From Caulobacterales bacterium (GTDB lineage: Bacteria; Pseudomonadota; Alphaproteobacteria; Caulobacterales; Aquidulcibacteraceae), in the NCBI GenBank assembly GCA_017303355.1, contig JAFLCU010000001.1, forward strand, positions 310,001 through 374,000: a DNA stretch of 64,000 bases. The letters are read 5' to 3'. The notes under the pieces were generated by a model. It ran no database searches. It was not told where the DNA came from and worked only from the letters and a program-made list of their open reading frames with translations. The translations under genes were made by a program, and so were the position numbers. How positions within the stretch are numbered: position 1 is the stretch's first letter; every line of letters starts with the position of its first letter. Positions 58,923-60,488 of this stretch are shown piece after piece.

Positions 58923-59360
58923 TCAGGGGCCCTTGCCCATGGTTTTTCTGCGCCGCTTCGCCTTCGCTGGCGGCTTCTTCTTTGCGGCGGCAAGCTTCTT
59001 CTTCGGCGGCGCGACATTCTTCGCCGGCCGCTTCGCGCGCACTGGCTTCGGCGCGGCCTTGGGCGCGACAGCCTTGCTGGCGGGAAGCGCGTGCAAGAAG
59101 ATGCTGGCTAAGCGCCTGATCTTCTCTTGCGTCGCCGGCTCGACCTCCTGGTCGCGGCCAGCCAGCAGGCGCACGGCGTCTATCGACACCAGCGCCGCGA
59201 CCGGGCGGCCGTAGCGATCAAAGCCAATGACGGCGTTTTCCAATTGCGCCGTTTCGAGAGCTTCGGCGAAATTCGCGCGCGCCTCCGAGGTGGAGTAAAC
59301 TTGCGCTTTCTTTTCGGCGCGCGCGGCGACCTTTTTCCGGAGCTCTCTAACAGGCTTCAT
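58923..59360 (-). CDS. Phd/YefM-like antitoxin with a Lys/Ala/Pro-rich tail
   Basis: 145 residues. Residues 20-66 (VYSTSEARANFAEALETAQLENAVIGFDRYGRPVAALVSIDAVRLL) match the Phd/YefM N-terminal DNA-binding and dimerisation fold. The last 50 residues are a histone-like tail (KAVAPKAAPKPVRAKRPAKNVAPPKKKLAAAKKK), unusual for this family. The start overlaps the stop of the upstream gene (ATGA), as in many toxin-antitoxin pairs, but the partner is not a recognised RelE or Doc toxin. It may be a true antitoxin, a nucleoid-type protein, or a relic. Confidence 0.6.
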   Translation of the reverse strand: MKPVRELRKKVAARAEKKAQVYSTSEARANFAEALETAQLENAVIGFDRYGRPVAALVSIDAVRLLAGRDQEVEPATQEKIRRLASIFLHALPASKAVAPKAAPKPVRAKRPAKNVAPPKKKLAAAKKKPPAKAKRRRKTMGKGP

Positions 59361-60100
59361 GTGAAGTCGCCCTCCAGCCGCGCGCCGAACAGAGTGATCG
59401 GCCAGAGCGGTTCAAACGCTGGTTCAATGTGGAGATTTCGCATTGTGTAGAAAGGCAGCCGTATCACGCTGTTGAGTTCTATCGGTTCGAGCCGGGCTTC
59501 ATAGGCGACAAGATGCGATCTGGCCGTCTCTATCTCCCGGAAAAGCGAGATGATCGGCGATGTCAAAGCGTCCAGGCGCGGCCAAGTCAATGCCGGTAAT
59601 CGCAAATCGCGCAATCTTGCGATGATGGGACGAGCGCCAATCATGGATTGTACGTGTCGTACAACATCGTGTCGGAAAAAAGTTCGCGCGCTCCGCAAGC
59701 ATAGATAATGCACAATTCGCTTTAATGTCGCGCGTTTCGATCGCCGCGACTGCGCCGCGCGCGCGCTCACGCGCTTGTTTCCAATGTGCCCGCCTTCGGA
59801 ACCCCCGTCGCGCCGGCCGCCCTTCTTCGGCTCGGGATGCATCACGATGTGAAGCACCCAATACCCGTCCTCGTGATCGTACTCGAGCGAGAAGCCGTAG
59901 CCATGTAGCATGAAAGCATAGCGGCCCACGGCCACGCCGTTTTGCAGCGGAAACGTGCGCGGCGCCCGCTCGATCAAGTCGTAACAATGATCAGTGAGCT
60001 CGACCATCTTCGGATGTGAGAACGGAGGCTTGCCTTCTACAAACCCCGTTCCGAAGCGGAGGCCTCTTCTGCGAATTCTTTTCTTGGGATTTTTCGCCAT
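59357..60100 (-). CDS. Unrecognised protein upstream of the Phd-like gene, possibly two fused or adjacent genes
   Basis: 247 residues from ATG 60100 (MAKNPKKRIRRRGLRFGTGF) with GAGGAA upstream. Residues 1-92 (LIERAPRTFPLQNGVAVGRYAFMLHGYGFSLEYDHEDGYWVLHIVMHPEP) look like a folded domain. Residues 95-150 are very basic and poorly coding in character. From Met153 (ATG 59644) a second ordinary stretch follows (MIGARPIIARLRDLRLPALT). A palindrome TTGTACG-TGT-CGTACAA (59648-59664) lies just before that ATG, as if a promoter/operator region had been read through. An alternative annotation is a separate 95-residue gene at 59357-59644 paired with the Phd-like gene. No family is recognised. Confidence 0.45.
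   Translation of the reverse strand: MAKNPKKRIRRRGLRFGTGFVEGKPPFSHPKMVELTDHCYDLIERAPRTFPLQNGVAVGRYAFMLHGYGFSLEYDHEDGYWVLHIVMHPEPKKGGRRDGGSEGGHIGNKRVSARAAQSRRSKRATLKRIVHYLCLRSARTFFRHDVVRHVQSMIGARPIIARLRDLRLPALTWPRLDALTSPIISLFREIETARSHLVAYEARLEPIELNSVIRLPFYTMRNLHIEPAFEPLWPITLFGARLEGDFT
59648..59664. promoter_or_regulatory. Palindrome TTGTACG-TGT-CGTACAA
   Basis: Perfect 7+7 inverted repeat with a 3-base spacer, 4 bases before ATG 59644 on the minus strand. It shares the pattern TGTAC-N5-GTACA with the site at 60219-60233, 0.6 kb upstream. It could be the operator of the Phd-like antitoxin system. Confidence 0.45.
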
Positions 60101-60218
60101 CCGCATTTCCTCGCCAAATTCTTGATGAGCGCCGCAGCCGGTTTGTGTGCGCGAAGACATCAGCAAAAGCCGAGGGCGTCAACATGTGTCGGATGCATAA
60201 CAGCCAATCCCTACATCT

Positions 60219-60233
60219 TGTACATATTGTACA
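60219..60233. promoter_or_regulatory. TGTACA-TAT-TGTACA operator-like site
   Basis: TGTAC-N5-GTACA in an AT-rich stretch 119 bases before the minus-strand gene at 60100. Its half-sites equal those of the palindrome at 59648-59664. Both suggest one dimeric regulator acting on this locus. Confidence 0.5.
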
Positions 60234-60488
60234 GAATGCTTGCGCTGGCCGCGCCGGATGGGAATGCTGCGATCGCCAGCGGGGCTGGGCTTGGCGAAAT
60301 GGCTGGCGCGCCAGCGACCGTGCAGTCGGCGGCCGCTGGCGCTTCAGCGCAACCCTACCCCTCCGCGCCGCTCCGGCCCACGCTGGCGACGCCTAAATTT
60401 TTTGAATGTTTTCGGAACTGGGATGGTCGGCGCGAGTTTTATCCGCGGCGCCGATCTACTCCCCCCGCCCAAGGCGCCACCGCAGCAC

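Follow-up and report, generated by a model that had tools for sequence, protein, structure and literature searches.

Which gene is the partner of the small Phd-like gene on the minus strand of this locus, and what is the function of the two TGTAC-N5-GTACA palindromes that accompany it? A preliminary description of the window (the whole stretch of 64,000 nucleotides analysed here) had proposed that the real pair is formed by the Phd-like gene and a 95-residue gene with its own operator, beginning at an internal ATG of the upstream frame, and that the longer frame of 247 residues, here called gene A, results from a lost stop codon. The features on which the argument depends are as follows.

58923-59360, minus strand: Phd/YefM-like protein, 145 aa (profile, alignment, conservation)
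59169-59303, minus strand: residues 20-64, the YefM-like DNA-binding core (aligned to E. coli YefM by hhalign)
58926-59081, minus strand: Lys/Ala/Pro-rich tail, residues 94-145 (composition)
59357-60100, minus strand: gene A, 247 aa, toxin-like partner (open frame and ribosome site)
59828-60070, minus strand: residues 11-91 of gene A, the N-terminal domain, modelled with a RelE/YoeB-like fold
59492-59779, minus strand: predicted helical body of gene A, residues 108-203 (model, low to medium confidence)
59384-59404, minus strand: C-terminal WPITLFG motif of gene A, residues 233-239, conserved
59357-59360, minus strand: ATGA overlap of 4 nt between the gene A stop and the Phd-like start
59648-59664, no strand: internal site TTGTAC-N5-GTACAA, putative operator at a putative promoter for the Phd-like gene
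60219-60233, no strand: upstream site with a pair of TGTACA hexamers at a distance of 9 bp, candidate operator for the operon promoter
59647-59675, minus strand: promoter-like CCGACA-17-TACAAT (consensus match only), overlapping the internal site

The basic geometry is as the preliminary description gave it: the Phd-like gene overlaps its upstream neighbour by 4 nt, both sites are present with identical half-sites, and one of them lies inside the upstream frame, four bases before the ATG at 59644.

A YefM-like core joined to a basic tail

The Phd-like protein of the window matches the Pfam profile PhdYeFM_antitox at E 0.0017 with 18.5 bits, below the cut-off of 29.8, and a PF02604 match at E <= 1 is present in 13 of the 19 members of the family (lowest E 2.1e-4). 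Aligned by hhalign with E. coli YefM, the core gives 45 gap-free columns (E 5.6e-5, probability 66). Relatives from 19 of the 24 loci that carry the gene share 18 invariant positions, and the conserved core reads STSEARANFAEALETAQ...VIGFDRYGR. Among the invariant positions are Arg28 and Arg49, which align with Arg10 and Arg31 of YefM; the first of these YefM residues is, we assume, a DNA contact. The core is under strong purifying selection, with dN/dS of 0 to 0.15 in 7 pairs.

Where Phd/YefM antitoxins have their C-terminal toxin-neutralising region, this protein has a basic Lys/Ala tail, which after the residues 'LAG' carries a net charge of +20, compared with -1 for the tail of E. coli YefM. 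This tail is a fixed trait of the family: the region after the core is basic in all 24 loci, with net charges from +7 to +24 (median +15). The Phd/YefM-type protein with a Lys/Ala tail is thus real, and the suggestion that its tail is unlike that of known members holds against E. coli YefM and fails within the lineage's own family, in which a basic tail is standard. The stretch before the tail could still bind a partner.

The genome also has two ordinary Phd/YefM genes, which lack a Lys/Ala tail and, in the stretches examined, TGTACA; a search of the genome for a YoeB-family gene found none. A RimM-like protein, also of this genome (L096 95-1459), has a very long Lys/Ala/Pro-rich N-terminus, so Lys/Ala-rich stretches may be a habit of the lineage.

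The pair keeps one chromosomal place

The Phd-like protein is found in 24 of the 30 genomes of the genus. Across the order it occurs in 25 of 299 genomes, namely these 24 and one of a sister genus, and in 0 of the other 268. The relatives that bear names (20 loci) are Hyphomonadaceae or alphaproteobacterial metagenome assemblies. In the loci that were read, the pair lies between what we take, from translations, to be an alcohol dehydrogenase-like gene downstream and a metallophosphoesterase-like gene upstream. The sister-genus protein (L054 1501-1917) also has a basic tail; there is no gene A-like frame in front of it and no TGTACA upstream in the stretch examined.

Six genomes of the genus have no Phd-like protein, and five of them, all but G012, were compared at this place. 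In G008 and G014 (L090 and L091) the two neighbours stand side by side, and neither gene A nor the Phd-like gene nor TGTACA occurs in the 4,107 bases examined. The other three (G015, G016 and G026) are without the near-identical dehydrogenase. The 73-aa Phd-like core matched none of 72,556 plasmid and 50,697 phage records at E 1e-5, the gene A query (A1) had no match among viral contigs, and a mobile element was ruled out on these grounds.

Gene A is coding along its whole length

Gene A has a GAGG-type ribosome site before its ATG at 60100, and a frame occupies the same position in 23 of the 24 loci. In 13 loci its last 4 nt overlap the Phd-like start and in 4 a gap of 4 nt separates the two, giving the operon-type arrangement of adjacent small genes in 17 of 24. 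In 6 loci the stop falls 114 to 360 nt before the Phd-like start, and in one, L015, gene A is absent.

The protein evolves fast: that of the window is 12-28% identical to 14 relatives. In the closest pairs dN/dS is 0.11 to 0.28 in all five windows along the gene (L005/L006) and 0.08 to 0.37 (L004/L008); single windows of distant pairs reach 0.78 and 1.03, at synonymous change near saturation. These ratios indicate that gene A is coding from end to end and that, in the closest pairs, purifying selection acts on all of it.

Close to the C-terminus (about 14 to 18 residues from it) lies a motif, W-x(2-5)-[LIPW]-F-G, which is present in 16 of the 17 proteins whose frame extends to the Phd-like gene, the exception being L013; with shuffled ends the count is 0.21 on average and at most 2. 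It is doubled in four proteins (L007, L011, L014 and L016) and absent from the five short forms of gene A. From its sequence, it looks like a short contact motif. Searches of Pfam and NCBIfam returned no family match for gene A, and a protein search of the genome contigs with gene A returned no match.

Two variants of the gene were seen besides. In L025 (795-1274) and L026 (811-1284) gene A itself has a Lys/Ala-rich tail. In L009 (L056 91-1193) it is split over two frames, which accounts for its early end there, with a TGTACA near the break; this is a frameshift, an assembly error or real.

The sites are placed non-randomly and resemble the yefM operator

The internal site, TGTACGTGTCGTACA at 59649-59663, and the upstream site, TGTACATATTGTACA at 60219-60233, are the only two occurrences of TGTAC-N5-GTACA in the window, against 0 in 100 shuffles. 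In the whole genome of 3,671,922 bases the pattern is found at 3 places, and a reversed control pattern at 1; the third place is within an 870-aa reading frame unrelated to the locus, which we take from its translation to be TonB-dependent receptor-like. The bare hexamer TGTACA is no more frequent in the window than chance predicts (2 copies against 2.0 expected), and both copies fall inside 60219-60233, the internal site here being without any complete hexamer. What exceeds chance is the paired form and its recurrence in relatives, not plain TGTACA. In all 3.67 Mb of the genome there are only 17 copies of TTGTACAA. The half-sites of the locus equal those of the E. coli yefM-yoeB operator, where the yefM start is preceded by TTGTACAATGAACTGTACAA.

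The upstream site sits 119-133 nt before the ATG of gene A. The internal site overlaps CCGACA-17-TACAAT, the sole promoter-like match in 59300-60400 (0.4 expected), which is directed toward the Phd-like gene and whose second hexamer, TACAAT at 59652-59647, falls inside the site; the consensus is that of E. coli sigma-70. The internal site is more likely to serve a promoter of the Phd-like gene itself than to be the operator of a 95-residue gene, judging from this arrangement.

The sites recur in relatives. In 23 of 24 loci the 1200 bp before the Phd-like start contain TGTACA or TGTAC-N5-GTACA; the exception is L015, the locus that lacks gene A. The loci are not all independent, since they include the near-relative pairs L005/L006, L004/L008 and L020/L023. 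Upstream of the Phd-like gene TGTACA ties with its shifted form GTACAA as the top hexamer among those with two G/C, and it is found 35 times in 27,981 bp upstream compared with 4 times in 34,301 bp downstream, where 1 of 28 windows of 1200 bp contains it (windows from 14 of the 20 named loci). Its positions fall into two recurring groups, one before gene A and the other either within it or between it and the Phd-like gene. Of the 23 loci with gene A, 10 have an upstream site 124 to 220 nt before its start, and in L025 and L026 the distance is 364-390 nt; some, not all, of the remaining loci are cut by contig ends. The two sites are about 500 to 1000 bp apart, and no fixed spacing between them was seen by eye across loci. 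A GTCAA element, mostly GTCAAGC, precedes the upstream TGTACA by about 15-20 nt in 7 of these 10 loci (L005, L006, L011, L018, L019, L021 and L022) and is possibly part of a promoter.

Are the internal sites kept as DNA or as encoded peptide? Among 16 full-length gene A frames of the 23 (partial, split and short genes were left out), 14 contain an internal TGTACA, with 17 sites in all, not counting the internal site of the window. Codon shuffles that keep the protein sequence gave a mean of 3.7 and a largest count of 9 in 1000. The sites are read in two phases, as x-V-Q or L-Y-N/K (V-V-R in the window), and lie at widely differing places along the protein. The two phases and the excess over codon shuffles together argue that a DNA motif is kept rather than a peptide. 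Chance occurrence of the sites was ruled out by the shuffles, the genome count, the recurrence in relatives and the codon-shuffle test.

The N-terminal domain of gene A is modelled with a RelE-type fold

In an AlphaFold2 model built from 15 sequences, the N-terminal domain of gene A has block pLDDT values of 81-95 except in the loop 51-60; beyond it the model has a long helical part and a disordered end. In a Foldseek search of the PDB, ranks 1-18 were all toxins of the RelE/ParE superfamily (the RelE/YoeB/HigB/PfiT group), the best at E 0.016 and probability 0.99 and none at E <= 0.001. VIA-align gave Z 6.5 for RelE, and an rmsd of 4.2 A over 75 residues for 4fxe_E; by that method's own warning a Z under 8 may reflect a common arrangement, and here Z is at most 6.5 and the rmsd over 4 A. 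A second model, built for the gene A protein of L067, which is naturally only 100 aa long (mean pLDDT 72), placed toxins of the superfamily at ranks 1-14 with Z up to 6.4; the two models come from related alignments and so are not independent.

At the sequence level, comparison of gene A with Pfam and NCBIfam gave no RelE/YoeB relationship, hhalign against YoeB gave no match (probability 0.6), and hmmsearch of PDB chains gave no RelE-type match. A RelE/YoeB-like N-terminal domain is nevertheless the best reading, because the modelled fold is joined with a YefM-like partner and a YefM-type operator. In a by-eye comparison of secondary structure over the 15 sequences, the positions that we take to form the RNase active site of the RelE branch have no conserved Arg, His or Tyr, and there is one near-invariant Trp. 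With the canonical catalytic positions not conserved, the toxin-like protein may have no activity, although this would not exclude a ParE-like or other target. The N-domain profile had no match in five genomes (G003, G004, G006, G027 and G029) where the Phd-like gene is present with a frame preceding it, and in which the domain may have been replaced or strongly changed. One weak match was found in another genus (G077, E 0.005).

A proposed toxin-first operon with two promoters, and its alternatives

We propose, with a probability of about 0.58, that the locus is a chromosomal, autoregulated two-gene operon descended from a toxin-antitoxin module of the YefM-YoeB/RelE type, with the toxin gene first. 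In gene A, a RelE/YoeB-like N-terminal domain would be followed by a long extension that evolves fast and ends in the W-x3-LFG-type motif. Gene B, the Phd-like gene, would encode a YefM-like DNA-binding protein in which a histone-like basic tail has replaced the toxin-binding tail. Because the toxin comes first, an extra source of antitoxin would be needed. A second promoter inside gene A could supply it by driving B alone, so that B would be made both with and without A. Protein B, alone or with A, would bind the TGTACA palindromes at the operon promoter and inside gene A, repressing both promoters, while the basic tail would contribute contacts to DNA that are not sequence-specific. The analysis shows the genes and their conservation, the sites with their non-random placement and their likeness to the yefM operator; the fold has the support of a model only, and we infer that B binds DNA, that there are two promoters and that A and B form a complex. 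Against this reading stand the modest fold scores, the lack of a sequence match to RelE or YoeB, the five genomes without an N-domain match, the unconserved catalytic residues and the hexamer spacing, which is not that of YefM. In addition, an upstream site no more than 220 nt from the gene A start is present in only 10 of the 23 gene A loci, and the usual charge complementarity of toxin and antitoxin is missing, the tail being basic and gene A mostly basic as well.

The strongest alternative, although on balance unlikely, shares this origin and holds that the pair has been fully domesticated, with gene A non-toxic and the pair acting as a chromatin-like regulator, or as a repressor with its co-regulator, to which the basic tail would supply non-specific DNA binding. 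Such a history would fit the unconserved catalytic positions, the Phd-like gene that L015 keeps without gene A, the single chromosomal place in 24 of 30 genomes with no plasmid or phage match, and a tail that is positive in 24 of 24. However, gene A changes more quickly than a settled co-regulator would, its dN/dS reaching about 1 in some windows, and the whole module is absent from two genomes in which the neighbourhood is intact.

Still less probable is a locus that does not derive from a toxin-antitoxin module as a unit, in which gene A is a fast-evolving orphan, some other regulator binds the sites and the tail is only a Lys/Ala-rich habit of the proteome. The Lys/Ala/Pro-rich N-terminus of the RimM-like protein and the lack of a family match for gene A would be explained in this way, but the sites equal an operator known from just the family to which the Phd-like protein is similar, loci without gene A lack them, and neither TGTACA nor such a tail accompanies the two ordinary Phd/YefM genes of the genome.

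Very improbable, finally, is a 95-residue gene from 59644 that has its own operator and is the true partner, with the long frame arising from a lost stop codon: the palindrome does end 4 bases before that ATG, and in L020 and L023 gene A has only 99-100 aa and the site falls in the gap before the Phd-like gene, so that the internal region can be non-coding, but there is no ribosome site in front of 59644, such a start is not conserved elsewhere (an in-frame ATG within 45 nt of the internal site is found in L016 only, and an in-frame GTG with a weak ribosome-site match near it in L007 and L024), and a lost stop codon, which cannot yield a conserved C-terminal motif, is ruled out by a frame that reaches the Phd-like gene in 17 of 24 loci, keeps the motif in 16 of those 17 and is under purifying selection. 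Of the earlier proposal of a pair with a shared operator, the toxin-antitoxin-like pair and its likely operators are probably right, and the 95-residue partner is not.

The toxin-first operon is therefore the reading that we carry forward. It is ordinary in kind, as a relative of toxin-antitoxin systems, and unusual in form. Doubtful, though worth stating, is a bolder version: a genus-specific YefM-YoeB offshoot in which the antitoxin has exchanged its toxin-binding tail for a histone-like one, the toxin has turned variable while keeping a conserved C-terminal W-x3-LFG contact motif, and in-gene operators persist in changing frames, the whole serving as a sequence-directed DNA-coating or sensing device. 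In this version the fast change of gene A would point to a possible conflict or defence system. If the operon reading is true, the locus shows a toxin-antitoxin pair becoming a fixed chromosomal regulator, with the operator and DNA-binding core kept while the toxin-binding tail and the toxin body were rebuilt. It would also be a natural case of an operator preserved in coding sequence while the protein changes, with 23 loci available for testing.

Comparison with known systems

In PMC7730913 the yefM-yoeB and axe-txe operators are described as two palindromes with a TGTACA core, 12 bp apart centre to centre, which are bound by the N-terminal domain of the antitoxin and of which the first covers the -10 box in E. 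coli. Our locus shares with YefM-YoeB and Axe-Txe the Phd/YefM-type N-terminal core, aligned without gaps, the TGTACA palindromes overlapping a TACAAT -10-like hexamer, and, in the model only, the RelE-superfamily fold of the partner. It differs from them in that the toxin-like gene comes first and has a long extension, a basic histone-like tail stands in place of the YefM tail, a second site lies inside the toxin-like gene, and the catalytic residues are not conserved. The hexamers at 60219 are 9 bp apart and not 12.

Searches of the openly licensed literature found no paper on a Lys-rich or histone-like antitoxin tail, on such systems in Hyphomonadaceae or on a RelE protein with a C-terminal extension. 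The gene order has a parallel in MqsRA, whose proteins we take to belong to other families than this pair. There too the toxin gene precedes the antitoxin gene, and promoters drive the antitoxin alone, according to PMC6918082; here, by contrast, the presumed antitoxin promoter has the operator motif of the operon promoter.

The tail itself has its likeness elsewhere, by composition only. Bacterial histone H1-like proteins have a Lys/Ala/Pro-rich basic tail of this kind; in the Phd-like protein, unlike in them, such a tail is joined to a DNA-binding core of a sequence-specific type.
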